From: Nitrospira sp.
GTDB lineage: Bacteria; Nitrospirota; Nitrospiria; Nitrospirales; Nitrospiraceae
Assembly: GCA_029194665.1 (NCBI GenBank)
Contig: JARFXO010000004.1
Span: forward strand, 62,001 to 126,000
DNA length: 64,000 nucleotides
Reading direction: 5' to 3'
Both the position numbers and the translations under genes were made by a program. The notes beneath the pieces were generated by a model. It was not told the origin of the DNA, ran no database searches, and was given only the letters and a program-made list of their open reading frames with translations. How positions within the stretch are numbered: the stretch's first letter is position 1; every line of letters begins with the position of its first letter. Below, one piece after another: positions 6,541 through 36,960 of the stretch.

Positions 6541-6549
6541 GAGACTGTG

Positions 6550-7795: not shown

Positions 7796-7822
7796 TTTGG
7801 GAGTAGGGGGGAGATTTGCACC

Positions 7823-9121: not shown

Positions 9122-9163
9122 CGGCGTGAGTTCGTCGGGCAGTCATTATTGAAGGGGGTTCAT

Positions 9164-9949: not shown

Positions 9950-9986
9950 TCTGAGGCTGTGTTTGTCCTCAAAGGAGTAACGTCCC

Positions 9987-10748: not shown

Positions 10749-10812
10749 GTTGATCGTGGGAAGTCGTGGGGGGGCCTCCATTGTTATGGGCTAAGAACAA
10801 GAAAGGTAGGAC

Positions 10813-13347: not shown

Positions 13348-13371
13348 TTGGTGCCGTCTGGGAGGAATGTG

Positions 13372-13944: not shown

Positions 13945-14085
13945 TCTATCTCGTAAACCTGGGTGTGGGACTTGTTTCGGGGATTCTTCGCCCAGGCGAT
14001 TCGGCCTCTTGCTCTTACGCCGGGGCACGGTCTTACAGTTCTTGATCATAGCTACATGTCCACGTTGTTCTAGGAGGTTCGTTCA

Positions 14086-15285: not shown

Positions 15286-16415
15286 TGACCCAAGCCGTGA
15301 ATGAACCTAGCTGGTTGATGAATGCACGCTGGTTCGGTGTTCTGAAGCGGGGTGTCCTTAGCGTGATTCTGGTTATTCTCTGCGGTCTGCCTTTCTCGGG
15401 GGTAGTGGCTCCAGACACTGCCGAAGCCTTTTGTCAGACGAGCACCAATGTTCTTGCCAGCTCGCTCGCTACGACATGTTGGGAGTGTATGTTTCCCATT
15501 AGCATGTCGGGGTTCACGCTCTTTAATGCTGGTGAGGACTATACCGTTCCGGCGGTTGGACCAGGACGAGCCCCGTACTACGGGTCTGTTTTGTGTGGTT
15601 GTATTTGCTTCAACGGTGTCTGTATCCCCGGACTTCCCTTCGGCATCTGGGAGCCCAAAAACCTGATTGAAGTGGTGCATGATCCCCTCTGTTTCCCGTC
15701 GTTGGGAGTGTCGCTGACGGGTGGATTCACCCATATTGGGCGCGGGTCTGAATCGACCCAGATGGACGATACGGAACTGAATCACTCCTTTTGGAATGTT
15801 CATTATATCTCCTATCCCCTTTGGTTTCTGATCGGTATTGGGCTCGATATCGCTTGTCTCAATCCGGGGGGGATCGCGGATGAGATTGATGTCGTGTTCA
15901 TCTCCGAGATTGATCCGTCCTGGAACGACGACATTCTCAACTTGATGCTGTTTCCCGAGGCGTTGCTCATTGCAAATCCGATTGCGCTCAGTGCATGTGC
16001 GGCCGATTCACTCGCTTCGTCCTTAGGATTTCCCATCGATGCCTTGTTTTGGTGTGCAGGGTCACAAGGATTTCTCTATCCTCCGGATGGCAACCATTCA
16101 GGTGCTGGTACGGATCTCGGTCCCGCTGCATTGTCGGGATTTCATATGTTGTCCAAGCTCGCGCGCGTAGGTGCGGAGGCGTATACCGCCGGCAATGGAG
16201 CTCTGATCTGCGATGACTTTCCGACAGGGCTTATCGTGAAGAGCCAGTACAAGTATCAATTGATCTATCCCATTCCAAATACCGGGACGATAGGACCGTG
16301 CTGTCAGCCGGTTGGTCGAACCCTCATGATGTGGGGTCTGAATAAATCCATCCCTGCAGTCGGTGAGGATTATGTGTTCCTACTATGGAAGCTCCAGCGA
16401 TGTTGCATGCTGTAA
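15282..16415 (+). CDS. traU: F-type T4SS mating-pair protein TraU
   Basis: This 377-aa cysteine-rich periplasmic protein begins with an ATGATG that overlaps the preceding stop. A signal segment (VLSVILVILCGLPFSGVVA) is followed by the TraU pattern: CWECMFPISMSGF, YYGSVLCGCICF, IGIGLDIACLNPGG, CAADSLASS and CCQPVGRT. The many cysteines need the DsbC-like and TraF proteins encoded in the same operon. TraU supports DNA transfer and mating-pair stabilisation. Confidence 0.93.
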   Translation: MMTQAVNEPSWLMNARWFGVLKRGVLSVILVILCGLPFSGVVAPDTAEAFCQTSTNVLASSLATTCWECMFPISMSGFTLFNAGEDYTVPAVGPGRAPYYGSVLCGCICFNGVCIPGLPFGIWEPKNLIEVVHDPLCFPSLGVSLTGGFTHIGRGSESTQMDDTELNHSFWNVHYISYPLWFLIGIGLDIACLNPGGIADEIDVVFISEIDPSWNDDILNLMLFPEALLIANPIALSACAADSLASSLGFPIDALFWCAGSQGFLYPPDGNHSGAGTDLGPAALSGFHMLSKLARVGAEAYTAGNGALICDDFPTGLIVKSQYKYQLIYPIPNTGTIGPCCQPVGRTLMMWGLNKSIPAVGEDYVFLLWKLQRCCML

Positions 16416-16442
16416 CCCGTGTCGCCGGGAAGGGGAGGTGAG

Positions 16443-17357
16443 ATGATGCGAGCTAGTTTTGGTAAGGCGGAAGTCGGTTTCCGCATCCTTACCATTTCTG
16501 TGGTCTTTCTCCTCCTACAAGTCGTGAGTGTCTTAGCCGAAGTCTTTCCCGGTACGATGGATTACATCGATCATTCACGCGAAGGGTGGTTTTTCTACAA
16601 AGACCCTCCGGTACAGATGGACGAGGAGGATGACGATGAAGAGATGCCTCCACAGCTCAAGATGCTTCCTGGAGATATTTGGTCGGACCCTGCCAAGCAT
16701 CGGCCGTTGCTGAAGAAGCTTCCCATTGATGGGATGAATCTCGAACGGCTGCCGGCGATGTTTCTCAAGGAGCTGGTTGACGCGAAGAAAGAAATGGCCT
16801 TAGACCTTCCCACCGTCCCCAATGTGACGGAGTACATTAAAGTTCAGCAGGCCGCATTCGATCGGTCGCAGAGGTTTACGGATGCGTATCAGGTGGCGAT
16901 GTATACGAATCCACAATTGGATTCATCGACGAAGCATCCGACCTCGACCTACGGGCATCAGATCGAAGCTGAGGTCACGAAACAGCAAGAAGAAGCATTG
17001 CTCGCGAGTGCGTCCGAAGAGGCCGGCCTGTTCTTCTTTTTCACGTCGACCTGCCCCTACTGTAAAGAGCAGGCCAAGATCGTCAAGCTCTTTGCCGATC
17101 AGTACGATCTGAAGATATTCCCCGTGTCGCTCGATGGTCAAGGTCTTCCTGAGTATCCACGGCCGGTCCGGGACAATGGGATGGCCGATAAGATTGGTGT
17201 GCATATGGTCCCGACGATCTATCTCGCGATCCCGCACGACAACTTCTTGAAACCCATTGGCGCTGGGCTGATGACGCTCAACGATTTACGAGAAAGAGTG
17301 TTGGTTCTTCTTCAGAAGAAGGACCTACTGCTTCAAGAACAGAAACGCAGTTCCTAA
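16443..17357 (+). CDS. traF: F-type T4SS thioredoxin-fold protein TraF
   Basis: This 304-aa periplasmic protein has a signal peptide, a TraF-specific helical region (about 40-180) and a C-terminal thioredoxin fold with CPYC at about 204-207, so it is a redox-active TraF; F plasmid TraF lacks the motif. A long acidic run (EEDDDEE) lies near residue 60. The ATG is preceded by AGGGGAGGTG. The order TraU-TraF-TraH-TraG is standard. Confidence 0.9.
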   Translation: MMRASFGKAEVGFRILTISVVFLLLQVVSVLAEVFPGTMDYIDHSREGWFFYKDPPVQMDEEDDDEEMPPQLKMLPGDIWSDPAKHRPLLKKLPIDGMNLERLPAMFLKELVDAKKEMALDLPTVPNVTEYIKVQQAAFDRSQRFTDAYQVAMYTNPQLDSSTKHPTSTYGHQIEAEVTKQQEEALLASASEEAGLFFFFTSTCPYCKEQAKIVKLFADQYDLKIFPVSLDGQGLPEYPRPVRDNGMADKIGVHMVPTIYLAIPHDNFLKPIGAGLMTLNDLRERVLVLLQKKDLLLQEQKRSS

Positions 17358-17371
17358 CCACACGAGGATGC

Positions 17372-18706
17372 ATGATCGGACGCACTATTTGTATTTGGTT
17401 CTGTGTGCTGACGTTACTTCTTCTCCCTGTCTTGTCTGAGGCGCAGAGCCTCGATTCTTCTCTGCAAAACATGTTTACGTCCTGGGGTACTGGGGTCACC
17501 ACACCTCCGGGGTCATATCAGAGCCAGAGCAAGGGGTACTTTAGCGGGGGCGGCGTCTCCGTTCGTACGTTCCAAAACAGCTTTAACGTGTTTTCAGTTG
17601 CTCCCCCACGCCTCAGCGTCGGGTGTCAGGGAATCGACGTGTACTTGGGGGCGTTCTCGTATGGAAAGCTCAGTCGGTACGTGAATCTTTTGACGCAGAT
17701 TGGAACGAGTGCCGTTCTGGGCTATGCGTTTCAACTTGCGATGAAAGCGATTTGCCCGGATTGTGCCGACGTTCTCAATAAGATTGAGGCGGCGGCCCGC
17801 GCGCTGAATGTTGCTGGTCGTATCCAGCCTTGTCAAACAGGCAATGAGATTGCGAAGGCATTGTCCGGAGATGAAAGTGCTCAGAATCGTCTCGCGAGTC
17901 GCTATGGCGACGCGTGGCAGAAAATGAAAGAAGCCGGAGCCTCTATCGGCGATGTCTTCGAAGATCGGGATACGACCGCTACCCAGACTACGCAACAAGC
18001 GACCACGGCGATGAAGGGCACGACCTATGACGTGACCGGAAATCTTGTTTGGGATGTTCTGGGTCTTGCTGGTGCGGACGACATGACAAGGCGATTGATT
18101 ATGTCAGCAACCGGTACGGTTATTGTCGATGATACGGGCGATGTCCAAACCCGTGAACCAACCCTCACCTTTGAACAACTGGTCGACACTGATACTGGGG
18201 ATACGGTCAGAGTGTTCGATTGTGGCGGGACACCGGAATGCCTTACCCCTACCGTGGTGGGCGATACCACGGTCCAAGGATTTCACAATCGTGTCTATGA
18301 CGCCCTCACGAACATCGTCACGGCGATTCAAGCTGGAACTGCTCTGGCGGCCGCGGATATTACCTTGATCAACATGTCGCCTGCGCCGATGTATCGGATG
18401 ATCTCTGAGTATGGGCGGGATCCTCAGATGGCGGATCAAATTGTTCGCCTCAGTGCAGAAATGATTGCAGCGGATATGGCCTATCAATGGATGCGATGGG
18501 CGGGGCAAGAAGTGAGTCGCAATGTTGATGGGATGAAGAAGCAGAAACCGGAATTCCCTGGCGATATTGCCAAGTTCAAAACGGAACTGCGTGCTCGTTT
18601 GCAGTTGGCGTCGACCGATCTCGCGAAGCGGGCCGGGATGCTGAACAACCTGAATCAGCTCATGCAGTTGGTCAAGACCGAGGGTCAGCTGAAGTCTCGG
18701 AAGTAG
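17372..18706 (+). CDS. traH: F-type T4SS pilus assembly protein TraH
   Basis: This 444-aa secreted protein has a signal peptide (VLTLLLLPVLSEAQS) and the TraH blocks SLQNMFTSWG, GYFSGGGVSVR, SVGCQGIDVYLGAFSY and AMKAICPDCADVLNKI. The C-terminal third is helical. TraH is an outer-membrane-associated pilus assembly protein. It starts 14 bp after traF. Confidence 0.93.
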   Translation: MIGRTICIWFCVLTLLLLPVLSEAQSLDSSLQNMFTSWGTGVTTPPGSYQSQSKGYFSGGGVSVRTFQNSFNVFSVAPPRLSVGCQGIDVYLGAFSYGKLSRYVNLLTQIGTSAVLGYAFQLAMKAICPDCADVLNKIEAAARALNVAGRIQPCQTGNEIAKALSGDESAQNRLASRYGDAWQKMKEAGASIGDVFEDRDTTATQTTQQATTAMKGTTYDVTGNLVWDVLGLAGADDMTRRLIMSATGTVIVDDTGDVQTREPTLTFEQLVDTDTGDTVRVFDCGGTPECLTPTVVGDTTVQGFHNRVYDALTNIVTAIQAGTALAAADITLINMSPAPMYRMISEYGRDPQMADQIVRLSAEMIAADMAYQWMRWAGQEVSRNVDGMKKQKPEFPGDIAKFKTELRARLQLASTDLAKRAGMLNNLNQLMQLVKTEGQLKSRK

Positions 18707-18754
18707 TGGTGTCAAGGCCGCGCCGATCAGTCACTTTGACGATGAGGTAGTCCG

Positions 18755-21700
18755 GTGTGGGATCTTTATACATATGGCAACGGTGACGTGATTAGCCAGG
18801 TCATGCTTGGTCTTCGGATCATGATGACCACCGGTCGTTTTGAGAGTCTCTTTCACCTTGCCCTCCTGGGCTTCGTGCTGTTCGGACTGGTCTACTATGC
18901 CTTCAATCGCCGCGCTCCTATGCTGCCCCTGTTTTTGGGAGCGATCATTATTCTGTATGCGAGTGTGCGGATCACGGTTGATGTCTCGGTCATGGACCAA
19001 GTCAACCCTGATGTGGCAGACGTCGTTGTCACGGGTGTTCCCATCGCCGTGGCCTTGCCGGCGTATGTTACCGGACAAGTCGGGTTCTTTGTCACCCAGT
19101 TGGTTGAAGCATCGTTTGCGATTCCTGTTCAATACACTCAGGGGCAATCGACGTACAATCGTCCTCTCTTTGATTTTCAGAAAGTATTAACTGCGACTCT
19201 TACCGATTCGGATTTAGCGAGGAATTTGGACATCTATTTCATGTTTTGTGTGTTCCCCGAGGTCGATCTGCAACAGAAGAATCTGGGTACGTTGATGTCT
19301 GCTGGCGATCTTCTGGCCGCATTTGCCGCGACGAATAATGCGCTTACGGCTCTGGGCTATGCTGGCGGCACCAGAGAGGCGGCACCGAGAACGTGTCCAG
19401 ACTTCTACAATATCCTCGTCGCGCCAGCGTTCACCGGGCCTGGTGCGGACTACACCAATGCCATGCGTCTCTTGCGTACGAAACTTCAGCTGACTGCTGC
19501 AAGTCCAATTGATGAGATCGGCTTGACTGATGACCTCCGGGCTAACCTCCTGCCAGTAGCTGGTCAGGACAGTACTCAGCTTATCAATAATGTCTTGTTG
19601 ATCAATCGTTGGCGCCATGCGGAGCATGAAGATGCGAAGCGGAAGGCGGATCCCGCGGAAAGTATCCTGCTTGAACAGCGAGCGGTTCGTCAGGATTTGA
19701 AAGAACAGGCGTTCTCCCGATCGAATGTGGCGCAGAAGATGATTCCCATGCTACGGACCATTGTCGAGGCCATGGTGTATATCATGAGCCCATTTATTCT
19801 CATCCTCGCTATTTCTCCAGGGATGATGAAGATGGTCAGTCTCTACTGGAAGTGTTTTCTGTGGTTGCTCACATGGGGACCGTTATATGCGGTCATGAAC
19901 TTCGTTTTGTTCCAAGAGGCTCGCTCCCGATTGGGTGGTCTGTTGGCTGCGGCTACGAGCGCCAATGTGAACATGGAAACGTATGATGCACTGAACGAGT
20001 TCATTGCAATGATGAATTCCACAGCCGCCGACTATGCATTTCTGGTTCCAGGCATTGGCTGGGCCTTGGTGTGGGGTGGGTCAGCGATCGGGAGTTCGTT
20101 TGGAGCCGGTGCCAAGACGGCGGAAGGTGCGGCGTCTTCAGTGGCATCGCAGTTTGCACGAGGGGAAGGCCGGGCACTTCTTGAAGGTCCAGCGTATCAC
20201 ACGGAGCCTGTCAGTCTTCCACGTGGTCAAGTGATCGGTCATGGGGTGGAGTCTGGTCCTCAATTCTCTATTCCTGTCGGAGCCGGGGGAGTCAGAGTCG
20301 ACAATCAGAACGGGACCGCCGATATTTTTGATAGTCATGGCGGGGTGACGAAGCTGGGCTCGAACGGCACGGTGATATATCACGGGAGTGAGGGGCAATA
20401 TACTCGTCGCGCAGACGGATCCTATGAGTCCGGTGTGTTCCGGCATAGCATGTTTGATTCTCACAGCGGCCAACAGGTTCAGGTCCAAACCTCTGTATTT
20501 GGAGACATGGTCGAAGACCGATTCACCTATACGGGGGGAGATGGGGTGGGGCGTTCCGTGATGGTTCAGCGGAATCAGAATAGTGGCGTCATCAGTGATC
20601 GAACAGAGCAGAGCATCCATGACGGGTTGCGTGAGAATCGGACTATTTCTGATAAGGGGTATGAATCGTTCAATCAGAGCGGCAATTTGATGCTGTGGCG
20701 GCATTATGGCGATCGGGTTGAGGCCGACCAAGCGTTAGTCACTGTGGCTGGTTTTCGTGAGTCCGGGATGAGCTCCGATCAACTAACCAACGCCACTATG
20801 CAGAGCACGATCGATGGTAAGTCGTTCCAGTCTGGAACGTTGGAAAAGAAGAATGGTCAGTGGCACTTTTTCGCGCAGCAGTTTGAGAAGGAAAAGGGAG
20901 GGAAGGAAACAGGCATTGCCGGTGGCCTGCAACGAACGATCCTTGGTGGGCCAGACCATGAACAGTTTTTCCTCGAGACGGGGAACAAGTCTTTCATGAC
21001 GGTTGGTCCGTTTGGCCAGTCAGGTTTTATTGCAGGGTCTGTTCTCGCTCGAGGCACGGTCGATGATACGGATAAGGCCAATCCCAAGACCAATTATTCG
21101 AATTTCTCTGTCTCGGAGGATCGAGGAGGAATCACCCATACTGTATTTGGACAGGTTCGGAAGGACGAAGATGGCATGGAAAAGCTCTTTGTCTCTCACG
21201 AATCGTGGGAGCAAGGCTCCAAAGGAATGCAGCACGGTCCGCAAACCATTGGTGGATACACGTTCGAGGGAACGTTTACGGGTCTGACCGGAAAGGCGAA
21301 TGACTCGAATGTTCCAACCTTGTTCAATGGGATGATCATGGATTCAAAGAATCCCAGCGCACAACCATTTCAGGCTTCTGCACTGTTAAAAGATGGAAAG
21401 GTGGCATTCCTGTCCGGGCAGGATGGCGACATCAAAACAAGTCACGAGAAGCGAACTCTTTCGGATGGAACGCAGCTGGAAGGCACCTTTACTGAAGTGA
21501 ACGGCTTTGGCAAAGATAGCTCACCAGTTACCCTGTTTAACGGCAAAGAGAAAAGCCTGGTCGAGCCGGAACGTCAAGTCAGTGGTTTGCTGGAGGGGGA
21601 TAAGCTTGTCAGCATGAAGGGCGGATCGGGGATACACACCCAAGATATTGGAACAGATATCACTCCAGACGGGAATATCCGCAGAGGTGTGACAGATACA

Positions 21701-23311
21701 TACTCTGGCGCAGATGGCAAAAACCCTATGGTTCGTTATGATGGCGTCAAAGAAGACTCGCGTACTGGGGAAAAGACTGCCTCAAGATCTACCTTCTTGG
21801 GTGGTGAGCGCATCATGGAGCAAGATCAGCGGGGTTATCAGAAGGGTGTGTTCGATCTGGTCCAGGAGATGTATGGGCATCGGAAAGAAGGATTTGGCAT
21901 TGATTCATTTCAGGGCAGTTTCATGGTCTATGACTCGAATCAAGGCCAAGAGATTCCTATGTACGCGCAACTGTTTTATCAAACCGGCGAGGACGGCACG
22001 CGCGTGAGTGATACGCCGATTGGAGGGATCGTTAGAAATACCGTTGATGAAAGTTATTCCTCCTTCATTACCACGGAGTCGGGCGAACAGGTGTGGGGGA
22101 TTAAGCAGGGTGCGCAAGATATGAAAAGGGGTATCTCAGTCGGAACGTTCCAAAGCACGATGACGGCGAAAACCGGTGAAGGTGGTGAAATTCACACCAG
22201 AGAATTAGGCAAGAAGATCGGAAAGGATGGTCAACGGGAGCTGCTGTCTCACAGTGTTGTGAGCGGATTTAGCCGGCAGCACCTCAATGAAGATGTGAGC
22301 AAGGGAACATTTGCGGTCACAGATCCTAAGACTGGTGGCTCAAGGAAGGTAAATGGGTGGGTCGCTCGTGACCCTCAAACCCATCAAGTGATGGCGTACG
22401 ATGTGACTGACACGGGTAAAGGGGTCATTGGAGAATTTCGAACTTCGAAGGAAGGGAAGCCGGTATATAGCGTTCGAGAATTCACGGCCTCTCCGGATGG
22501 GAAGGGGATGGTTGAAAGAACTCGTGAAGTCAATCAGGACTACTTCGTGCAGAACGGATATGTCACGAGCAATTATCGAGACCAAGAAGGGAATGTAATT
22601 TTATCAGAGGGAAAAAAAGGAACTGACCATCACGATTTCAATCGTGTCCAGTTTCACTCTGACAGCGGGTCCAATCTCTCTGTCACGCAAATGGTGTTCA
22701 AGGCTATGGGTACGGATATGTCGAATCCTTCAAAGGTTGAAGAGGGCATTGCCTATGGCATTGAGAGTGGCAGGCTGGGGATTGATGGGCTTAACAAATT
22801 TCTCATTCTTAGGGGCCGCGGACTAGGGCAATCGCGTAGAGGCGGGGGCATAGAGGGAGGGGGGCCCACGTCTGGTGGTCATGGTCCTTCGGGGCCTGGG
22901 AGCGGCTCTCCATCTGGGCAGGGCCCACAGTTTCTTAGTTCTGAGCAGAATAAGAACGAATGGATGGCTTCGTATGGGAGCATGCTTCAAAATGCTGCAG
23001 AGTTCGCTAGAATGAGCGTAAGCAGTGCGGTCTCGGCCGGGCATTTTGCTCCAGACTCACCTGAGGCCGCAAGTTATGCCGCCACGCAAGCATACGAATC
23101 GATCAAATCTCAATCCAGGGCCTTGGTGCAGGGGGACGAGGACATTTCCTTCCCCTCGATGCCCAGGATTCTCGATGATCAACCCTCTCTTTTGAAATCG
23201 CCGTCGAATGGAGAGGGAGCGCCTTCTGCTCGAACGCGCGGAAGTGATCGTGGTTCTTCACAATCTTCTCAGCCGTCGCCCTCGCGATCAAATGAATCAG
23301 TTATGAAGTAA
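18755..23311 (+). CDS. traG: very long F-type mating protein TraG
   Basis: This 1518-aa protein has a TraG N-terminal membrane domain (residues about 1-480) with hydrophobic segments at the start, at PIAVALPAYVTGQVG, at MSPFILILAISPGMM and at the LVPGIGWALVWGG block. A GTG start with GAGG upstream is used. Residues about 500-1350 form a long polar, glycine-rich periplasmic extension made of short beta-type repeats. Two adjacent units (about 830-905 and 905-970) align: LEGTFT-x-G-x(8-10)-TLFNG-x(20)-DG-K. The end is Ser/Pro/Gly-rich and probably disordered. F TraG is about 938 residues, so the extension is roughly 580 residues longer. It may set mating-pair or exclusion specificity. Confidence 0.9.
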   Translation: MWDLYTYGNGDVISQVMLGLRIMMTTGRFESLFHLALLGFVLFGLVYYAFNRRAPMLPLFLGAIIILYASVRITVDVSVMDQVNPDVADVVVTGVPIAVALPAYVTGQVGFFVTQLVEASFAIPVQYTQGQSTYNRPLFDFQKVLTATLTDSDLARNLDIYFMFCVFPEVDLQQKNLGTLMSAGDLLAAFAATNNALTALGYAGGTREAAPRTCPDFYNILVAPAFTGPGADYTNAMRLLRTKLQLTAASPIDEIGLTDDLRANLLPVAGQDSTQLINNVLLINRWRHAEHEDAKRKADPAESILLEQRAVRQDLKEQAFSRSNVAQKMIPMLRTIVEAMVYIMSPFILILAISPGMMKMVSLYWKCFLWLLTWGPLYAVMNFVLFQEARSRLGGLLAAATSANVNMETYDALNEFIAMMNSTAADYAFLVPGIGWALVWGGSAIGSSFGAGAKTAEGAASSVASQFARGEGRALLEGPAYHTEPVSLPRGQVIGHGVESGPQFSIPVGAGGVRVDNQNGTADIFDSHGGVTKLGSNGTVIYHGSEGQYTRRADGSYESGVFRHSMFDSHSGQQVQVQTSVFGDMVEDRFTYTGGDGVGRSVMVQRNQNSGVISDRTEQSIHDGLRENRTISDKGYESFNQSGNLMLWRHYGDRVEADQALVTVAGFRESGMSSDQLTNATMQSTIDGKSFQSGTLEKKNGQWHFFAQQFEKEKGGKETGIAGGLQRTILGGPDHEQFFLETGNKSFMTVGPFGQSGFIAGSVLARGTVDDTDKANPKTNYSNFSVSEDRGGITHTVFGQVRKDEDGMEKLFVSHESWEQGSKGMQHGPQTIGGYTFEGTFTGLTGKANDSNVPTLFNGMIMDSKNPSAQPFQASALLKDGKVAFLSGQDGDIKTSHEKRTLSDGTQLEGTFTEVNGFGKDSSPVTLFNGKEKSLVEPERQVSGLLEGDKLVSMKGGSGIHTQDIGTDITPDGNIRRGVTDTYSGADGKNPMVRYDGVKEDSRTGEKTASRSTFLGGERIMEQDQRGYQKGVFDLVQEMYGHRKEGFGIDSFQGSFMVYDSNQGQEIPMYAQLFYQTGEDGTRVSDTPIGGIVRNTVDESYSSFITTESGEQVWGIKQGAQDMKRGISVGTFQSTMTAKTGEGGEIHTRELGKKIGKDGQRELLSHSVVSGFSRQHLNEDVSKGTFAVTDPKTGGSRKVNGWVARDPQTHQVMAYDVTDTGKGVIGEFRTSKEGKPVYSVREFTASPDGKGMVERTREVNQDYFVQNGYVTSNYRDQEGNVILSEGKKGTDHHDFNRVQFHSDSGSNLSVTQMVFKAMGTDMSNPSKVEEGIAYGIESGRLGIDGLNKFLILRGRGLGQSRRGGGIEGGGPTSGGHGPSGPGSGSPSGQGPQFLSSEQNKNEWMASYGSMLQNAAEFARMSVSSAVSAGHFAPDSPEAASYAATQAYESIKSQSRALVQGDEDISFPSMPRILDDQPSLLKSPSNGEGAPSARTRGSDRGSSQSSQPSPSRSNESVMK

Positions 23312-27640: not shown

Positions 27641-28082
27641 GGGCGTAATTCTTCCCCTTCGGCCGCAGGCCCTGCTGCTTCAACTCCTGCACACCAGTCT
27701 CTATGGCTTCAATCAACAGGCCTTACTCGACGGTCCCCCACCGCGCGGCGCGCTGTACTTGTTTCATCAGATCGCGGGGAATGTTCAGAAATATTCACGA
27801 CCCGCCCTTATCTTCTGGCGCTTTCCCTTTCGACATTTTGCGAGGGTATCACAGGCGGGCGGACTAGGTACATATTCCTTGACATCATCTACCGTGTGAA
27901 CTGCACTGCCCTACTTAATTTGTGGACGAGAACATTTCTCGATTGCGACTATCCTTTTATAAAGAATTCAGGTGCTTCCGAAGTTCCACTTCCAAAGGGA
28001 TATAAGAGATATTTGGTAGCACTCGCCTGCTACTCTGTAACGAGGCTCACGGCTCCCTTCCCATGATCGTTTTGAACAGATT
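27641..28082. other. gap, no gene seen
   Basis: This AT-rich stretch separates the PilZ gene and a lipoprotein gene, both on the minus strand. It holds an open plus-strand frame (27533-28066) without a ribosome site that partly opposes the PilZ gene; I regard it as spurious. No repeats or terminators stand out. Confidence 0.35.
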
Positions 28083-28620: not shown

Positions 28621-29277
28621 ATGGACATGATTCCAATTGGACATTTAGTCGCAGGCCGGGTTGTTCGTGCCTACCCAGATAAAGATGCGTATCTGGTGTG
28701 GTTGCACGAATCCAATACGTTTGCCCTCCTTCCGAAACGGTATCAGGACCATCCACTCAAGATACGCGACTCGGTCTCTGCTGCAGTTTTTAAGTATGGG
28801 GGAGCATACCCGATACTTTCTCAACGCTGCGCGCACTTTTTCCGGAAAATCGCCGAATCTGTTCTCCTGCCGGCACTTCGTGAACACGGCATCTCTGTCC
28901 ATCGGGTTGCGACTGTGGAACATGCCGATTTCGTCAAAATCGCTCTTAAGCATAGTGATCCGACAAAAGATCCAGTGAAGGTGTGCAAGGCCCTTATCCC
29001 GCAGTTTACCAGTCAGATTTCCCGCACCATCTGTCTCGTTCGTTACAGCCAGGATCTCGAAGCCTATATCGTCAACGCACTGTCCCCGGCTCCGGCACGA
29101 GCCATCCGGCATATCTTTGTGTACCGAGAAGAACGACGAGCCCGTGTGATCGTTGAACGCGGCACGATAGGGGCTTTTCTCGGAAAGGCCGCCATGAATG
29201 TTGCGACGGCGAGCAAGTTAACCGGGATCGGTATCGAGCCGTTCGATGAGTCTGAACTAGCTGGGGGAACAACGTAA
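28621..29277 (+). CDS. short NusA-like protein (S1-KH1-KH2, no N-terminal domain)
   Basis: This 218-aa protein aligns with the RNA-binding part of NusA. Residues about 5-85 look like the S1 domain (GHLVAGRVVRAYPDKDAYLV, then YPILSQRCAHFFRKI where NusA has its LSRxxPxFL block). Residues about 95-160 resemble KH1 (VEHADFVKIALKHSDPTKDPV, DLEAYIVNALSPA). The end resembles KH2 (ARVIVERGTIGAFLGKAAMN, NVATASKLTGIGIEP). The RNA-polymerase-binding N-terminal domain and the acidic repeats of full NusA are absent; normal NusA is about 350-500 residues. It opens a plus-strand transfer block that also encodes a NusG-like protein, so a role in antitermination or RNA binding on the long tra transcripts is likely but inferred. 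Confidence 0.8.
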   Translation: MDMIPIGHLVAGRVVRAYPDKDAYLVWLHESNTFALLPKRYQDHPLKIRDSVSAAVFKYGGAYPILSQRCAHFFRKIAESVLLPALREHGISVHRVATVEHADFVKIALKHSDPTKDPVKVCKALIPQFTSQISRTICLVRYSQDLEAYIVNALSPAPARAIRHIFVYREERRARVIVERGTIGAFLGKAAMNVATASKLTGIGIEPFDESELAGGTT

Positions 29278-29287: not shown

Positions 29288-29995
29288 ATGACAACAACCG
29301 CAATTACCCAGAACGGTCAGGTGGGCCAGGTCCAGCCGCCTGCCGCCGTCCAGCCTGCGGGTCGAGAGAGCAACAAAGGGCAACAGCGGACTCGGGATCT
29401 GAAACACCGCATTCAGGATCGTCGCGACCGCACAAAGGATCCGTCTTCTATTCTCATTCTTCATCGCACGACGGAAGGCAGGATTCTCTCAAACTTGCTC
29501 TTCCCCTTCGACAAAATCGTTCAGCGCCTTCGTCGTGGTGCTGGTGACCAAGTGCCGATGGAAACCGTTCACGCTGTGCAGGTTCGGATTGAAAATTGGA
29601 TGGAGCAATGTCGGGCCCTCCTCCAAAGTTTTGGAGTCGGGAACAATGTGTGGCAGTGGAAAGAACCCGCGTCTGATATTAACGACCGAATGGTGTTGGC
29701 AGGCCGGAAGAATGCGGTGGTGATCGTGCCACGAGTGCAGGACACCACGAAGGTGGTACCTCTGATTCGAGCGCTCGATGACACCATGCTGCGGATTCGG
29801 ATGGAGGCCGAAGACCTGTCGAAATACAAAGACCAGTTTCGTCTTCTCGGGGAACTGGTGGTTGGGCTGCATCAAATCATTCAGCACGGTGCCCGTGTCA
29901 CGGACACAGAATACAGAATCAACGATGACCTTGGAAAGCTGTTACGGCAGAGCTCTCCCGCGAAGGACGCAAGCCCATCCGCCCATCAATCATAA
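29288..29995 (+). CDS. hypothetical protein in transfer block
   Basis: This 235-aa soluble protein has a Gln/Pro/Ala-rich disordered start (about 1-55) and a helical body with heptad-like spacing (SNLLFPFDKIVQRLRRGAG, VHAVQVRIENWMEQCRALLQ, LLGELVVGLHQIIQ). No family is recognised. The ATG has GGAGG upstream and follows the NusA-like gene by 10 bp, so the two are probably cotranscribed. It might be a partner of the NusA-like protein. Confidence 0.6.
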   Translation: MTTTAITQNGQVGQVQPPAAVQPAGRESNKGQQRTRDLKHRIQDRRDRTKDPSSILILHRTTEGRILSNLLFPFDKIVQRLRRGAGDQVPMETVHAVQVRIENWMEQCRALLQSFGVGNNVWQWKEPASDINDRMVLAGRKNAVVIVPRVQDTTKVVPLIRALDDTMLRIRMEAEDLSKYKDQFRLLGELVVGLHQIIQHGARVTDTEYRINDDLGKLLRQSSPAKDASPSAHQS

Positions 29996-30013: not shown

Positions 30014-31075
30014 ATGTATCGCGCAGTACTGTTGTTGCCAATCATACTCATGGCCCCTGGTTGTGTGGGTTGGGGGACCTACGATGAGTTGCATGCCAAG
30101 CACGATCATCTGTTGGATGTGAAAGAACAGTGGGAGAGCGAACAGCAGTCGCTTGAAACCCGAGTCGAAGATACGGCTCGGGCCTATCAGCATGTGAGTG
30201 TGGAGCAGACCTCATTGAAGCACCAGGTCGATAGGGTCATCGACACGATGCGGAGTGCGAAGGAAGATCTTCGTATCGCCGGTGTGAAGATCGATCGGCA
30301 AGATGCAATCCTTCGCACGCAACAGGAGCAAATGACTGATCTGGGCAAGAAATTTGTTTCGGTCATGAGTCAGGTGGCTACTTTGGCTGAAACCAATTCC
30401 GCGTTGGCCAATCGGATGGATCAGATTCTTGTTCGCTTGAACAAGGTCGTTCAGGCGAAGCACGCGGGGCCTGCAGAATCCGCTAAGACCAAACATGGAT
30501 CCGCTCAAGCGAAGGCTGCTCTTGATAGGCCAGACGAGGCTGTGGTGAAGGGAGACGACAAGAGCGACAAGAGCAAGGTCGCTTCCGCAGATTCCATGCA
30601 GGCTTTTGTGCCCGGCGTCCAACTCCCTGGTAGTGCTGCCTACTCACTAATGAACCCAGTCGTTCCAGGAGTGGGACCTTCGGTAGGCTCGGTCGCTTCA
30701 ACACCACAAGATCTGCCTCAAACTGAGGCGCGTACTGTTCCTTCGCTAGAGAAACAGCATGTTCCTGAGGTCGCGAGTGTACCGGTCGTTCCAGCGGTAA
30801 AGCCGGCTGTTATTGAGGCAAAAAAGAGTTTCATTGCTGAATGGATACAAAAGCTTCGTCCAACTGTGGTGAAGGCTCCGGTAGCGCCCAAGCCCAGTGC
30901 AATGACTTCAGGAGGTGGGCAGAAGGCTTCGGATGTGGCTGAGAAGTCGAATGGGGAGGCGTTCGCTGCGCCCATGCCATCCGATTCACTCACAATTAGC
31001 ACTCACCGTGGAGTGCCTGCGACTGGCCCTATGCCAGGGGCGCCGTCTTCGGATGCTCCTGCAGTGAAGCCGTGA
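30014..31075 (+). CDS. coiled-coil lipoprotein
   Basis: This 353-aa protein has a signal sequence with a lipobox-like APGC. Residues about 25-150 form a long coiled coil (HDHLLDVKEQWESEQQSLET and following heptads). The remaining 200 residues are rich in Pro, Ala, Val, Ser and Lys and probably disordered. Coiled-coil lipoproteins may span the periplasm in secretion systems. No known T4SS family was recognised. AAGGAGGACC precedes the ATG. Confidence 0.65.
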   Translation: MYRAVLLLPIILMAPGCVGWGTYDELHAKHDHLLDVKEQWESEQQSLETRVEDTARAYQHVSVEQTSLKHQVDRVIDTMRSAKEDLRIAGVKIDRQDAILRTQQEQMTDLGKKFVSVMSQVATLAETNSALANRMDQILVRLNKVVQAKHAGPAESAKTKHGSAQAKAALDRPDEAVVKGDDKSDKSKVASADSMQAFVPGVQLPGSAAYSLMNPVVPGVGPSVGSVASTPQDLPQTEARTVPSLEKQHVPEVASVPVVPAVKPAVIEAKKSFIAEWIQKLRPTVVKAPVAPKPSAMTSGGGQKASDVAEKSNGEAFAAPMPSDSLTISTHRGVPATGPMPGAPSSDAPAVKP

Positions 31076-31079
31076 GGTC

Positions 31080-31574
31080 ATGATGAAGGTGCTGACAATT
31101 CCGTATTTCCCCTTTCGTCAATATGAACCGATCGATGCCTTAACAGAGTTCCAAACGGTAGGGCTGGCCTCTTGGCGAGATTGGTGGGCCAAGTACTTCG
31201 ATATTGTTGGTGGGCGCGCTCGGGTCTATGAACGTCCGACCATGAGTGCCATCCAGGACGCGACCTCTCGGATGAAACAGGAGGCTAAGGATCTGGGTGC
31301 CGATGCCATCATCGGGTATTCGATTTCCGTGTTTCCGTTGAATTCAAAGGGGATGGGCATGTCTCAGGTTCTCGTCTGCGGAACGGCCGTACGATTCGTA
31401 TCCATGCCGGCGTCGAAAGTGGCTTCGCGCACCACTCGACCGGGTGAGGAGCCGACTGAACAGACAATTGCCGAACACTCGGTTCCGGTCGAGGTGTTTC
31501 CAGGTTTTTCAGATCTGGATATCCAAGTGCCATCTCTCGACGGTGTCAGTAGGTCGTCCTCGATTGTGAAGTAA
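31080..31574 (+). CDS. YbjQ/UPF0145-like domain protein
   Basis: Residues about 20-108 match the YbjQ-type putative heavy-metal-binding domain (PF01906): IVGGRARVYERPTMSAIQDA, KQEAKDLGADAIIGYSIS, and the end GMSQVLVCGTAVRF. The remaining 55 residues are variable. The family forms pentameric beta barrels of unclear function. It lies between the coiled-coil lipoprotein and TraN. A signal peptide is absent, so it should be cytoplasmic unless recruited. Confidence 0.75.
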   Translation: MMKVLTIPYFPFRQYEPIDALTEFQTVGLASWRDWWAKYFDIVGGRARVYERPTMSAIQDATSRMKQEAKDLGADAIIGYSISVFPLNSKGMGMSQVLVCGTAVRFVSMPASKVASRTTRPGEEPTEQTIAEHSVPVEVFPGFSDLDIQVPSLDGVSRSSSIVK

Positions 31575-31582: not shown

Positions 31583-33475
31583 ATGATACATGTGTTGATT
31601 GCCCTCTCGATGATCCTGTTCTGTGCGTTGGCATTGCCCGCGGCACCGGTTGAGGCGAACCATTGTGCGGCGATGCCCGACGCGTATCAGCAGGCAAATT
31701 GCGAGATCGGCCATCAGAAGGCTAGTGGAATTGTCGGTGGGGGAATCATTGCTCCTCATATGGGCAATGTTCCTCAATATTCAGGATCGCCTGGGTGTGT
31801 GACGGCCAGGTGTTCCGGCGCATCACAAGAGGGATATTTTACTGACACCGGTGATACGTCGGCTCTCAATTCTGCGGGCGGCTCAGCGGCTGGCACAGAT
31901 CCTCGTTATGGGGAGATGATGACCACACAGACAGACAAAACTGGCTACAATCTTTCAACGAGCGCTCCTGTGACTACAGCTGAAGCTAATGCGGCGGGAT
32001 ATACAGGGTCGACGGGCGTGGGAAGTACCTGTATCGATGTTCAGACCTGTACTAGTTGGACGGCTGGGACGCCAGCAATACAGCAGTGCACGGCTTCTGG
32101 GTCGGCCGTTGCGAATTGTCATATTGGGGTCACGACGACTGCCCGGACATTGAATTTCACATTGACAATGCCATCGCCACTTCCGATTGTTGGGTGGTCG
32201 TCTCCGCATAGTGTGTTTGTTCATCTTCAAAGTTTAGGTGGTAGAAATTACCAGGCCTTAATTGGACGTGGTCATGGCTCCGTATGGAGCTGGTACACGC
32301 TCTATACCTTTACCGCTCCTGATCCTGGTCTTGCTCCGGACGAGATCGTCGTACAGAGCGGTGTGTCTGTGAATATCACTGTCCAGGGAGACGGAGGGCC
32401 TGGGTGCGGGACGTGGAGAGGCGATGTGCCCGTGGGGGCTTTATGGGAAGTGCTGGCGTGTTCTGCGAGTGGTGACCAATCTGGTTGGGCGAGATTGAAC
32501 AGCGGTTTCGGATTTTATGATATTCGAAAAGATGTCATTGATGATGGGTGTGGAGGGCTTCGCGCGAGCGGATGGTTACTCCAGACATCCGTCTGTAATG
32601 ATAACGTGCCGCGTCAGGTGACCACGGATACCGGCAAAGTGCTCACGCTTCCCCCACCAACGATATTCCCTTTGAATAATTGTTGGGATCGGGATGAGCA
32701 GTGGGGTTATCAAGGCACTGCTCCTGATACCTGTGCTCCGCTGTTGAGCCAGGGATGTAGTCAGATTGCTTCTGTGTGTACCGTTCCCCTTCCTGGCGGC
32801 TGTGATACCTATCAGAACACCTTCTCCTGTCCATCTGATTCAGTCTGTGCTTCCTATACGACCGTGCAACAGTGTACCGATTGTGGAACTCCCGGGAGTC
32901 CTGTTCCGTTCTGTGTTGACAAGACTACTCCTCCCAATACCAATCTGGCTTTAGCCGCGACCTGGCTACAAATCGCGAAGGATATTGAGGATGATTGGGA
33001 TCCTGCGAATCTCAGGATTTTTACAGGTCAACGCCGCACGTGTGATTATGACACAGCGGGGCAAATCATTGTGAATTGTTGTGATACGGATCCGTCTAAA
33101 TTATTTGGAACCTGTTCGCAAGAGGAAATTGATCTGGCCTACGATCGCCAGAATCGGAAGGCCCACTTTGTCGGGACGCATTGTGTGACGCAAGTGTTTG
33201 GCATGTGTATTCGCAAGGAGGAAGTCTATTGTTCGTTCCGGACCGAGCTGGCTCGGTTAATTCACGATCAGGGACGTCCTCAGATCGGCAAGTCGTGGGG
33301 GACCGCTGACACGCCGGATTGCACCGGGTTCACAGTCCCGGAATTCACCAGCCTGAATTTTGCCGCGATGGATTTTAGTGAATGGTATCGCAATGTGAGT
33401 GCCAGCATTGATCCAGTGGCGATTACGAATCAGATGACTACGAAGATCTGTGCTTATACGGGCACTTGTCCTTGA
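31583..33475 (+). CDS. traN: F-type mating-pair stabilisation protein TraN
   Basis: This 630-aa secreted protein (signal MIHVLIALSMILFCALALPA) is cysteine-rich. The C-terminal region carries the TraN signature: HFVGTHCVTQVFGMCIRKEE, YCSFRTELARLIHDQGRPQ, then DCTGFTVPEFTSLNFAAMDF. TraN sits in the outer membrane of the donor and contacts the recipient surface. The central region (about 100-330) is variable, as expected for receptor specificity. It lies apart from the main tra cluster. Confidence 0.92.
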   Translation: MIHVLIALSMILFCALALPAAPVEANHCAAMPDAYQQANCEIGHQKASGIVGGGIIAPHMGNVPQYSGSPGCVTARCSGASQEGYFTDTGDTSALNSAGGSAAGTDPRYGEMMTTQTDKTGYNLSTSAPVTTAEANAAGYTGSTGVGSTCIDVQTCTSWTAGTPAIQQCTASGSAVANCHIGVTTTARTLNFTLTMPSPLPIVGWSSPHSVFVHLQSLGGRNYQALIGRGHGSVWSWYTLYTFTAPDPGLAPDEIVVQSGVSVNITVQGDGGPGCGTWRGDVPVGALWEVLACSASGDQSGWARLNSGFGFYDIRKDVIDDGCGGLRASGWLLQTSVCNDNVPRQVTTDTGKVLTLPPPTIFPLNNCWDRDEQWGYQGTAPDTCAPLLSQGCSQIASVCTVPLPGGCDTYQNTFSCPSDSVCASYTTVQQCTDCGTPGSPVPFCVDKTTPPNTNLALAATWLQIAKDIEDDWDPANLRIFTGQRRTCDYDTAGQIIVNCCDTDPSKLFGTCSQEEIDLAYDRQNRKAHFVGTHCVTQVFGMCIRKEEVYCSFRTELARLIHDQGRPQIGKSWGTADTPDCTGFTVPEFTSLNFAAMDFSEWYRNVSASIDPVAITNQMTTKICAYTGTCP

Positions 33476-33511
33476 CGCCAACGAGGAGCAAGTCACACCT
33501 ATAGGATGATC

Positions 33512-34069
33512 ATGAAAAAGCAGGTGGTTGGGTGTGTCTTATTGGTTGTGACAGGGGTGCCTTCAATGTCAGTCGCCGCTCCTGAGCAGTCTCCCCATTT
33601 GGTAAATCCTTTTTGGTACGTGAACCATCCGTGTGTGTATCACGCGGCTACTCGATACAGACTCACGCCGCGTATTCTCGAAGCCATTGTCCACGTTGAG
33701 TCGAAGGGGAATCCGTATGCTGTCTCCGTCAATGAAAAAGGGGAAGGACATACCCAGGGACCATTGACCTATACCGAGGCAAAAGCCGTGGTTCAGAAGT
33801 TGTGGAAGGAAGGCAAGAATTTTGATGTTGGTCTGACTGAGATTAATTCGATCCATATGAAGACCTATCGTCTCGACCCCGTCCTGCTTTTGGACCCATG
33901 CACAAATCTCTACTGGGGGGCCTTTATCCTTCGCCAAAAGGTCAATCAATTTGGCGAGGGATGGGTTGCCGTTGGACGGTACAACGGAAGTCGTAACGTG
34001 GTGGGCTATAGCTGGAAGATCTTTGAGGCGCTGAAAGTCCTCGACCAAGTTGTCCATGGCAAGCGATAG
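33512..34069 (+). CDS. lytic transglycosylase (SLT family) of the transfer system
   Basis: This 185-aa periplasmic protein has a signal peptide (VVGCVLLVVTGVPSMSVAA) and an SLT domain: TPRILEAIVHVESKGNPYAV with the catalytic Glu in HVESKGNP, FDVGLTEINSIH, LLDPCTNLYWGAFILRQ and AVGRYNG. It opens the peptidoglycan layer for the secretion channel, like VirB1 and F orf169. The ATG at 33512 has TAGGATGATC upstream; another ATG lies 6 bp earlier. Confidence 0.9.
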   Translation: MKKQVVGCVLLVVTGVPSMSVAAPEQSPHLVNPFWYVNHPCVYHAATRYRLTPRILEAIVHVESKGNPYAVSVNEKGEGHTQGPLTYTEAKAVVQKLWKEGKNFDVGLTEINSIHMKTYRLDPVLLLDPCTNLYWGAFILRQKVNQFGEGWVAVGRYNGSRNVVGYSWKIFEALKVLDQVVHGKR

Positions 34070-34092: not shown

Positions 34093-34581
34093 ATGGGAGA
34101 CTCTGACGTTGTATCCCTGACCGTTCCCGGCGACTTGCCCCCTGTGGAGGTTCCTCGCCGTCTTGATTCTTCTGAGCATTACGCCGTGGATGTTGTAGTC
34201 GGGAAGGAGCGCCGTGTGATTGAGGGGCTGCGCCGTCTGGGCTATCTCGAGGTGACGTCTCCGATTGCTGGCTATGTTCAGTTTTCTGCTAAGGACATCA
34301 ATCGCGACATTATTCGGCAAATCCCGAATGTCCGACAGCTCATGGCATTGGGGCACGAGTCTCTCTCTGTCCCATCGAGTGAACAATCGGGTACAGCATC
34401 GTTCAAAGAAGGGGATCTTGTGCGAATCCGATGTGGCACGTACAAGAAATTGTCAGGAATTCTCCTTGCCTGGAAAGATCAAGCCGGAGTGGTCGACACT
34501 ATTATCTTCGGCCGCTCCGTCCGGGTGCCTGTTGATCATGATGAGATTGAGTCCATTCCTTTACCGGAAGCCTGGAAGTAG
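34093..34581 (+). CDS. NusG-like (NusG/RfaH superfamily) protein
   Basis: This 162-aa protein has the two-domain NusG layout. The N-terminal half (YAVDVVVGKERRVIEGLRRL, then PIAGYVQFSAK and a turn with IPNVRQLM) fits the NGN domain, including the PGYV-like motif. The C-terminal half (FKEGDLVRIRCGTYKKLSGI, then VDTIIFGRSVRVPVDHDEIE) fits the KOW domain. Core NusG in most bacteria is about 175-185 residues, so the size is right. Conjugative plasmids often carry RfaH/ActX-type NusG paralogues that let RNA polymerase read long transfer operons. Here it shares a block with a NusA-like protein. No ops-like sequence was located. Confidence 0.8.
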   Translation: MGDSDVVSLTVPGDLPPVEVPRRLDSSEHYAVDVVVGKERRVIEGLRRLGYLEVTSPIAGYVQFSAKDINRDIIRQIPNVRQLMALGHESLSVPSSEQSGTASFKEGDLVRIRCGTYKKLSGILLAWKDQAGVVDTIIFGRSVRVPVDHDEIESIPLPEAWK

Positions 34582-34583: not shown

Positions 34584-35963
34584 ATGTGTAATCTTCATCA
34601 GTGGATCCCTCGATGGTGGGGTAAAGCCCATCCTCCCATCGTTCAGCCTGTCCGGACGCAGATCAATATCGATCTCGATACGATCGCGAGGAACATTTGG
34701 CTTCCCTACAACATCGACTTTATTCAGGAGTCGGGCGATCTCAGCGAAAAGCCCGTCGAGCTCGATCCTGCGGCGATCGATGATCCTGAAATCATCAAAG
34801 AGATTCGATTGAGCAAAGAAATCGAACAGGCTCAGTTACAGGCCGAGCAGCCTCCCGCGCCTTCAACTCCCTCACTCCCAACCAAGCCGAATGTGGTTAT
34901 GCAGCTTGTTGAGTCGATCGATGTTCGACCGAAACTGAATCTTCCTGTTCAGGCCGAAGGATCATCTGAAATCATTCGGGAACTGATTCTCCCAAACGAG
35001 AACATTCTTCGGACGCAAGGGGTGCTCACGCAAACGCTGGAACTAGCGAGGGTCATCGAGCAGAAAGGGACTTGTCCGTCGATTGTGACGATCGCTCCAG
35101 AAAAGGATTCGGAGTATGCCGATCTATGGGCCATTCGTAACACGCTGGCCCAGGTGTCCATGGCGAATCACACCCTACGTGTCTCACAGATTGCGTTGCG
35201 CCTTGTACGGGAGCAGTACCGAGATCACCAGCTCCTGGTGCCGAAGGTGCTGATTACTGCGTTGGGCCATGATCTCGGCAAGATCCCCGATTTCCGCGCT
35301 GCCGGCATCTATTCCATGGGAGACCATCCCATGATGTCTGCGGTGAAGTTGCAGGAAATATTCAAGGGGACGGATCTCCCTTGGTTCCATGAGGTGATTG
35401 AGGCGATCAAATCACATCATCGCACGAGCAAAGAGCCGCTCGATGTGTTATTGAAGCGAGCGGACGGGGAAGCGCGACAATATGAGTTGGCCGCCACCAA
35501 GGGGAATTTGGTTGTGAAGCCATGGGATGAGTGGTGCACGGTTCCGGAGATTCTGCAGCTCATTGAACCTCGGATCAACCTCCTCGGTCGCGGGAACAAA
35601 TGGGCCGCCTTGGCCATGAAAGATATCGTCTACGTGGTGCCGGAAGTGCTGCTCGAAGCTGCTCGTCATCTCAGCGAATCGAAGGGGGTGGTGGACATCA
35701 CCTTGATTCGTCAGTCTGATTATGAAGGGGCATTGCGAAAGATGGTAGCCCAGTTCCGGGACGCGCATCTTTTGGCGCTGGATGTGGGTGATGGTTTCTA
35801 TGGGAGAAAGTTTGCCATTCAGACTCCCAAAACAGGCGGAGTCCGTCGATCGTATCTGGTCCCGATTAAGATTGGTGCCTTTGCGGTGTCTCCTGGCGAG
35901 CTCGAGGCGCGTAAGCGCGGGGTGCTCAAGATTGTGAGTGATGTGCGACTCGAGAGTGCGTAG
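34584..35963 (+). CDS. HD-domain protein, function unknown
   Basis: This 459-aa protein holds an HD metal-hydrolase domain in residues about 175-330: NHTLRVSQIALRL, then GHDLGK with His229-Asp230, DHPMMSAVKL, IKSHHRTSKEP and a late Asp in KRADGEAR. The start (WLPYNIDFIQES) and the C-terminal 100 residues (DVGDGFYGRKFAIQT, RRSYLVPIKIGAF) belong to no family that I recognise. HD domains also form the core of MOBH relaxases, but the PASxxHHH motif typical of those is not visible. It could be a divergent processing protein or a nucleotide phosphohydrolase. The gene starts 2 bp after the NusG-like stop. Confidence 0.65.
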   Translation: MCNLHQWIPRWWGKAHPPIVQPVRTQINIDLDTIARNIWLPYNIDFIQESGDLSEKPVELDPAAIDDPEIIKEIRLSKEIEQAQLQAEQPPAPSTPSLPTKPNVVMQLVESIDVRPKLNLPVQAEGSSEIIRELILPNENILRTQGVLTQTLELARVIEQKGTCPSIVTIAPEKDSEYADLWAIRNTLAQVSMANHTLRVSQIALRLVREQYRDHQLLVPKVLITALGHDLGKIPDFRAAGIYSMGDHPMMSAVKLQEIFKGTDLPWFHEVIEAIKSHHRTSKEPLDVLLKRADGEARQYELAATKGNLVVKPWDEWCTVPEILQLIEPRINLLGRGNKWAALAMKDIVYVVPEVLLEAARHLSESKGVVDITLIRQSDYEGALRKMVAQFRDAHLLALDVGDGFYGRKFAIQTPKTGGVRRSYLVPIKIGAFAVSPGELEARKRGVLKIVSDVRLESA

Positions 35964-35971: not shown

Positions 35972-36226
35972 GTGGAGGATCTGCTGTTCTGGATAAACCC
36001 GTTGGCCTACATTACCGAAGAACAGTATTTGGCTTGGTGGACTTGGGTCTCCCATCTCGTATTGAAGGGGCTTCCGCTTCATCTGATGACCCTGTCGGCT
36101 CTAGGCGCAACCTTCTGGTTCGGTGCGTATAAGCTGCGCGCCGGCATCGGACTGTTTTGCTTTCTCATCACCATCCTATGCGCGTACGTTCACCCTTTCA
36201 TGCGACTCTTGAATTTAGGTGAATGA
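35972..36226 (+). CDS. small membrane protein
   Basis: This 84-aa protein starts at GTG with TAGGAGGGG upstream. It has two likely membrane segments (VLKGLPLHLMTLSALGATFW and AGIGLFCFLITILCAYV) and an aromatic N-terminus. The stop overlaps the next start (ATGATGA), so the two are translated together. No family is recognised. Confidence 0.7.
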   Translation: MEDLLFWINPLAYITEEQYLAWWTWVSHLVLKGLPLHLMTLSALGATFWFGAYKLRAGIGLFCFLITILCAYVHPFMRLLNLGE

Positions 36227-36960
36227 TGGAACGTGGAGCCCGACCTGGCCCACTGTTTTCTGAGGGCAGTCCCCGTAGTCAACCGCGCAGCTTGATTACG
36301 GCGATCAGCGAGATTCAGGAACTGGCGATCGTTGAGAAGATGGGTAGGAGTCTTCCCGAGCAGATCATGCTGCTGGATCGGAGCTTCGCCTATGCCGAGG
36401 TTGGTGTCTACGGCGTGGCTCTCGATGCCTTGTTCAGCGTCATTGGGATTCCGCTCAGCATTGCCGTCTGCTGGAATCTGATGCCGATCTTTGGGTCGTG
36501 GACACCCGGGCTGTTTGATAAATGCATTGCCTTGTTTATCGGTGTCGGGTACGGCGTCGTCTTTAACGTGATGATTGGACGGACCCTTGGCGGGTGTTAC
36601 TACGGCAAGGTTTGTAAGCGATCAATCGATCTTATTTACGAAACGATGATCTATTGCAACGTGTTCAAGATCCTGATTCTCTTTCTGGCCTTTCACGGGA
36701 TCCGGAACGTTCTCACTCCGGAATTTGCGCATAACATCTTCGATACACTCTGGCCGGCGTTCCGACCATTCATGTCTACCGACTCGGCCGTTGTGTTTCA
36801 GGACTGGATGGTCAATATGCGTGAAGTGATGATCGTGTCGAGCTGGTGGGCTCTGGCAACGACACTGCTCTCTCTCCTGGTGCCCTACTTCTACTTCCAA
36901 CGTGGCGAGAAACGCGCCGCGGAGGAACACCGTCTCAACGTGCTCTACGACGGCTACTAG
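36223..36960 (+). CDS. polytopic membrane protein of transfer block
   Basis: This 245-aa protein has about five hydrophobic segments (near residues 65-85, 95-125, 140-160 and 205-225) and hydrophilic ends. It may be an exclusion or mating-pair-associated membrane protein, as often encoded near the end of transfer regions, but no family match is visible. ATGATG at the start overlaps the previous stop codon; ATG 36223 is used. Confidence 0.7.
   Translation: MMERGARPGPLFSEGSPRSQPRSLITAISEIQELAIVEKMGRSLPEQIMLLDRSFAYAEVGVYGVALDALFSVIGIPLSIAVCWNLMPIFGSWTPGLFDKCIALFIGVGYGVVFNVMIGRTLGGCYYGKVCKRSIDLIYETMIYCNVFKILILFLAFHGIRNVLTPEFAHNIFDTLWPAFRPFMSTDSAVVFQDWMVNMREVMIVSSWWALATTLLSLLVPYFYFQRGEKRAAEEHRLNVLYDGY

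Follow-up and report, generated by a model that had tools for sequence, protein, structure and literature searches.

NusG paralogues are known on mobile genetic elements, and NusA is usually regarded as a one-copy core factor. In 2022, the chromosomally encoded RfaH was described as the one processive antiterminator then known for conjugation operons of Gram-negative bacteria (PMC8955417). ActX is a NusG paralogue which is encoded in plasmid pilus operons and whose function is unknown (PMC7819879), and LoaP, likewise a specialised NusG paralogue, acts as an antagonist of NusA (PMC12691694). AcaB is a transfer activator of IncC plasmids, and its gene lies near traN (PMC11493245).

The locus considered here lies in a 64,000-nucleotide stretch of a Nitrospira sp. 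contig (the window, whose first letter is position 1). It is an F-type transfer region which encodes a NusA-like protein, NusAL (Table 1). The open reading frame is real and contains the peptides quoted in a sequence-only reading of the window, which had described the product as the S1, KH1 and KH2 domains of NusA, lacking both the RNA-polymerase-binding N-terminal domain and the C-terminal acidic repeats. A new finding is that a minimal NusG-like protein (NusGL) and a probable AcaB-fold protein (AcaBL) are encoded in these elements as well. The sequence-only reading took in neither partner, the former 5 kb downstream and the latter immediately downstream, and both shift the favoured mechanism.

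Table 1. Features of the NusAL locus (window coordinates unless a contig is named).
Feature	Position	Strand	Description and evidence
Main tra operon traL-E-K-B-dsbC-V-C-trhF-W-U-F-H-G	6262..23311	+	gene-by-gene homology and order in sister elements
TraU	contig C4:77462-78409		PF06834
NusAL (NusA-like protein)	28621..29277	+	218 aa; S1-KH1-KH2 of NusA, no N-terminal RNA-polymerase-binding domain; pI 9.5
NusAL S1 domain	28621..28830	+	residues ~1-70; AF2 strands 9-17, 23-28, 33-38, 51-59, 64-67; family-profile alignment to NusA
NusAL KH1 domain	28831..29091	+	residues ~71-157; GxxG loop deleted
NusAL KH2 domain	29092..29262	+	residues ~158-214; loop GKAA; TIGR01953 E 3.6e-10
AcaBL	29288..29995	+	235 aa, directly after NusAL; AF2 pLDDT 85.2; AcaB top structural match
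Lipoprotein, predicted	30014..31075	+	353 aa; lipobox by eye; position conserved
YbjQ-family protein	31080..31574	+	PF01906 E 1.5e-15; position conserved
TraN, F-type mating-pair stabilization protein	31583..33475	+	PF06986 E 3.9e-44; TIGR02750 E 6.8e-41
SLT lytic transglycosylase	33506..34069	+	PF01464 E 2.4e-14
NusGL	34093..34581	+	162 aa; shortened NGN and KOW; KOW retains FGR motif
HD-domain protein	34584..35963	+	PF01966 E 1.5e-9; also in Desulfosarcina and Pelobacter plasmid F-type regions
Two small conserved genes, end of block	35972..36960	+	84 and 245 aa; synteny; no Pfam match for either protein

Searched as a single sequence, NusAL matches the NusA family TIGR01953 through its KH2 region (E 3.6e-10), the NusA structure 1hh2 in the PDB through its KH region (E 8e-7), and PF13184 KH_5 slightly short of the Pfam cut-off (E 8.3e-5); single-sequence HMM searches give no match for S1. 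The profile of the 18 family members aligns over positions 5-214 to residues 110-321 of 4mtn_A (E 1.4e-15), which covers S1, KH1 and KH2. The AlphaFold2 model (pLDDT 92.8, pTM 0.86) contains the S1 barrel and both KH folds. Its top 17 Foldseek matches are all bacterial NusA (best E 1.4e-17), followed by archaeal NusA, and VIA-align places it on NusA with Z 22.1 over 207 residues at 2.9 Å. The two checks proposed with the sequence-only reading, a search against NusA domains and a comparison of the model with NusA crystal structures, thus bear out the three domains, S1 included.

The absence of the N-terminal RNA-polymerase-binding domain holds for the whole family: it is missing from all 18 NusAL sequences, every one of which begins at S1. 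The GxxG loop of KH1 is gone in 18/18 NusAL sequences and kept in the 36 chromosomal NusA compared in a joint alignment (34 scored by pattern, two by eye). At this position NusAL reads DPVKVCKALIP-----QFTS and the host NusA DPVGACVGIKGSRVQAVVRE; the host loop itself reads DPVGACVGIKGSRV, and the region is deleted in all NusAL. The GxxG of KH2 is kept in 16 of the 18 distinct sequences, the exceptions being the window copy (GKAA) and that of genome G255 (GPKA). Given its KH2 loop, the window protein may grip RNA weakly. NusAL scores 39.4 bits against TIGR01953, below the curated NusA cut-off of 253.4. Because it lacks the N-terminal domain and the KH1 loop and falls short of the curated score, NusAL is classed as a NusA paralogue and not as NusA. 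It would be an element-specific paralogue cut down to the RNA-binding half of the protein.

The host genome (4.8 Mb) has a full-length NusA of 383 aa on another contig (C1:297255-298262; TIGR01953, 411 bits). This protein has a short tail after KH2 and no long acidic repeats, so that the only large part missing in NusAL is the N-terminal domain. The acidic repeats are indeed absent from NusAL, as had been noticed, but their absence does not distinguish it from the host protein. A maximum-likelihood tree was built with chromosomal NusA of Nitrospirota, Holophagae and Bacillota, and its root is undefined. NusAL forms one clade in this tree, with 100/100 support and a very long branch, apart from chromosomal NusA, a topology that fits a single old origin. 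NusAL as a truncated host nusA is ruled out, since the host keeps its own NusA and the two proteins fall into different clades.

When 79 genomes of the genus and 396 of the phylum Nitrospirota were searched with profiles, a standalone NusAL, with open frames of 214-249 aa, was found in 19 Nitrospirota genomes (G000, which is that of the window, G007, G060, G090, G091, G097, G099, G149, G220, G227, G255, G305, G313, G321, G349, G392, G409, G412 and G425). The proteins of G313 and G425 are identical, which leaves 18 distinct sequences, all of them basic (pI 9.2-9.8). In five close pairs, NusAL has a dN/dS of 0.07-0.14. These values are among the lowest of the gene block and indicate strong purifying selection. 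The GKAA loop which replaces GxxG in the window KH2 is what a functionless relic might show. However, considering these dN/dS values, the frames that are open in 19/19 genomes and the full-length profile and structure matches, a functionless relic or chance domain resemblance has a negligible probability. Indeed, chance resemblance to NusA is ruled out by the profile, structure and selection tests.

A stretch of 33,586 bases of the element is 100.000% identical in G313 and G425, two genomes placed in different genera. This suggests either a very recent transfer or the contamination of one of the assemblies.

The profile searches covered Nitrospirota, and the methods applied beyond that phylum are weak for distant relatives, so the true range of NusAL may be wider. 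With this sensitivity, a tblastn search of 72,556 plasmids with four NusAL members found nothing beyond ordinary NusA and short matches to KH domains. In phage records the matches were likewise of the ordinary NusA kind, the single IMG/VR match was a false one, in a coiled coil, and a scan of genome contigs gave just one chromosomal NusA. A Niveibacterium match from the plasmid search was rejected as a NusAL; the gene sits between rimP and rpsO. PHROGs holds no match for NusAL, AcaBL or NusGL. Among plasmid genes annotated as nusA, one is found on the 375-kb plasmid pY5S7-1 of Paenibacillus amylolyticus (324486-325559, 357 aa), beside a helix-turn-helix regulator, and a similar one on a plasmid of Paenibacillus sp. 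37.

Eighteen of the 19 NusAL copies lie visibly within F-type transfer regions, and the 19th (G409) is on a 6.9-kb contig. The expected link with transfer genes thus holds for every orthologue with enough context. In the window, homology to sister elements identifies TraL/E/K/B/V/C/W/U/F/H/G upstream of NusAL, and TraN lies downstream. The usual gene order is traG, a variable stretch, NusAL, an AcaB-like protein of 200-240 aa, a lipoprotein, YbjQ, TraN, SLT, NusGL, HD and two small proteins. The YbjQ-family protein (PF01906), beside TraN, recurs consistently in these transfer blocks. The variable stretch between traG and nusAL is a cargo slot whose content differs between elements; in the window (23448-28520) it includes a DUF433-like/PIN-like pair (24017-24666, by eye), a GlxA-type regulator (25314-26327, minus strand, by eye) and a PilZ protein (27053-27640, minus strand, PF07238 E 1.5e-9). 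Further along, positions 39989-41071 encode a 360-aa protein resembling the large subunit of exonuclease VII (PF02601 E 5.5e-19), near a ParM-type actin gene. In G097 and G349, TraN is about 338 aa long, compared to 625-689 aa in most relatives, and TraU is not found in either genome; these elements are possibly reduced or incomplete.

KH and S1 domains can bind single-stranded DNA. NusAL, a basic protein (pI 9.2-9.8) encoded in a transfer block, might therefore handle nucleic acids during transfer, in either the donor or the recipient, by binding the element's single-stranded DNA or early transcripts. We consider this very unlikely, because the gene directly after NusAL is that of AcaBL, rather than a relaxase or leading-region gene, and SSB-like ORFs are seen by eye elsewhere in the window (e.g., 47069-47623).

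AcaBL directly follows NusAL wherever the contig permits. It matches no named sequence family, the one weak match being TIGR03761 (E 0.095). The top Foldseek match of its model is AcaB (6n8a, probability 0.96, E 0.068), and VIA gives Z 10.4 over 147 residues, with 11% identity, the next match having Z 7.0. By fold alone, AcaBL is a probable AcaB-fold protein. The assignment is kept at this level because AcaBL is mostly helical; helical folds readily give middling scores, and a Z of about 10 is inconclusive among them. Half-length proteins of 130-156 aa which match AcaBL weakly are found, up to three per genome, in the TraU-bearing genomes G370 (contigs C60, C12 and C77), G205 (C74) and G376 (C140).

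NusGL does not reach the Pfam and NCBIfam cut-offs, but its family profile matches NusG in the PDB (E 2.9e-9) and aligns with Nitrospirota NusG over both NGN and KOW (hhalign, E 5.7e-16, probability 98.6). The same alignment shows that its NGN is about 23 residues shorter than that of NusG. The FGR motif of KOW, or a close form of it, occurs in most members and aligns with the position of F165/R167 of E. coli NusG. These two residues of the E. coli protein are used for S10 and Rho. S10 and Rho share the KOW surface of NusG (PMC7819879).

The three genes occur together. TraU (PF06834) is found in 37 of 396 Nitrospirota genomes, and NusAL in 15 of these 37; TraU cannot be required of every NusAL genome, as the requirement fails for G097 and G349, in which the contigs with NusAL are short. 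Strong AcaBL matches occur in the same 15 genomes, one copy being cut by a contig end, and elsewhere they are at best weak. NusGL accompanies 14 of these 15 NusAL elements, twelve with a strong match and G149 and G255 with divergent copies of 137 and 140 aa; in G412, only a short, unclear ORF occupies its slot. The other 22 TraU genomes have no NusAL, AcaBL or NusGL and just chromosomal-type NusA and NusG. These counts are not independent, since the elements have a common ancestry. More telling are G149 and G255, the two most divergent elements: their gene order is broken up, yet they retain NusAL, AcaBL and the 137/140-aa NusGL.

We give about an even chance that NusAL, AcaBL and NusGL form a module by which one clade of F-type elements controls the expression of its own transfer genes, probably at elongation. 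The main tra operon is its likely target. NusAL has RNA-binding folds and no polymerase anchor, and is inherited with NusGL and a likely transfer regulator, which suggests control of the tra transcripts; a role in elongation, with NusGL linking the module to polymerase, is favoured. AcaBL would act on tra promoters. NusGL would ride the host RNA polymerase via its remaining NGN and contact the ribosome (S10) or Rho via KOW. NusAL, unable to dock by an N-terminal domain, would join by way of nascent RNA that its S1 and KH2 bind, possibly with recruitment through NusGL as well. Long tra transcripts would then be made more processively and with less polarity. RNA binding by NusAL, joint action of the three proteins, an effect on elongation and antitermination are what we infer here. 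That the three assemble on RNA polymerase as an element-specific tra elongation complex is a more tentative proposal, to which we give somewhat less than an even chance.

The combination of S1 and KH without an RNA-polymerase domain, which holds in 18/18 sequences, is also typical of RNA-binding regulators, and NusGL is encoded 5 kb away from NusAL, in G149 even in another transcription unit. NusAL could therefore act post-transcriptionally, by binding tra mRNA (e.g., its leaders) and controlling how it is translated or how stable it is, without contacting RNA polymerase; NusGL would then work separately. This seems unlikely, albeit the strongest of the alternatives, because the specific S1-KH1-KH2 arrangement of NusA is kept family-wide, beyond what a mere RNA-binding fold would need, and because NusAL co-occurs with NusGL.

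It is also conceivable that NusAL, which shares the S1-KH1-KH2 surface with NusA, antagonises the host protein, for which LoaP offers a precedent among specialised NusG paralogues. NusAL would compete for RNA or for the contacts of NusA on NusG or the ribosome, and thereby lift NusA-dependent pausing and termination on tra operons, or disturb host transcription. However, lacking the N-terminal domain, it has no means of direct competition for the main RNA-polymerase site. The loss of the KH1 loop makes it a weaker competitor for RNA, and the protein is very divergent from host NusA. Moreover, hairpins resembling intrinsic terminators, a common target of NusA, show no enrichment across the tra region, with 17 found against 16.9 expected in one count and 5 against 13.6 in the other. 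Antagonism of host NusA is thus improbable.

The hairpin counts bear on the module reading as well. A tra operon laden with terminators is not supported by them, nor is the relief of intrinsic termination. If the module acts in antitermination, relief of Rho-dependent polarity is more likely.

A sequence motif which was spotted post hoc may be related to this control. GTAATAC lies shortly upstream of nusAL, on the coding strand and always in the same orientation, in 12 elements of four subgroups (L009, L036, L038-L040 and L057-L063; G091 has one mismatch). The form GTAWTAC is also found upstream of parM in several elements, and in the window it occurs at 3274-3280, 42 bases before the ORF at 3322, the first of the tra region, and at 38684-38690; the window's own nusAL has no GTAATAC upstream. 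The motif is a candidate promoter element, operator or RNA site.

The statement that no described element has its own NusA-like protein stands: no precedent for an element-encoded NusA paralogue was found in the open-access literature. If the assignment is true, NusAL would be the first element-encoded NusA paralogue, and these elements would be the first with both NusA and NusG paralogues. The findings suggest that these elements of Nitrospira-like bacteria run their own version of the transcript-elongation control of the cell. A mobile NusA paralogue which has long been kept without its polymerase domain, alongside a NusG paralogue and a probable transfer regulator, would demonstrate that a mobile element can possess a partial Nus complex. 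NusAL would also be a natural test of the RNA-binding half of NusA uncoupled from the N-terminal domain.

NusAL resembles NusA itself in how S1-KH1-KH2 are folded and arranged (Z 22 over 207 residues) and in a full-length profile match, but it lacks the N-terminal domain, its KH1 GxxG loop is deleted, and it is encoded by an element in a host with a normal NusA. The archaeal NusA-like proteins (2cxc, 9fjl) similarly have the KH domains of NusA but no N-terminal domain of the bacterial kind. They are cellular gene products without S1, whereas NusAL includes this domain and is far closer to bacterial NusA in its matches. The gene of AcaBL lies close to traN, and a lipoprotein gene stands between them, just as for AcaB of IncC. 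AcaBL also probably has the AcaB fold, but the two proteins have 11% identity and no sequence-level match. No NusA-like neighbour of acaB is known to us from IncC.

ActX, RfaH and LoaP are likewise copies of a core elongation factor encoded near genes that they possibly control, and ActX is element-linked. They belong with NusG, whereas NusAL is a paralogue of NusA; as for NusGL, its NGN is much shorter and it stands as a set of its own. With conAn of pLS20, the shared logic would be element-encoded elongation control over a long conjugation operon (PMC8955417). conAn relies on a small protein and an RNA at the operon start, in an operon with many intrinsic terminators; none of these is seen here, and the module, unlike conAn, does not lie at the start of the tra operon (PMC8955417).
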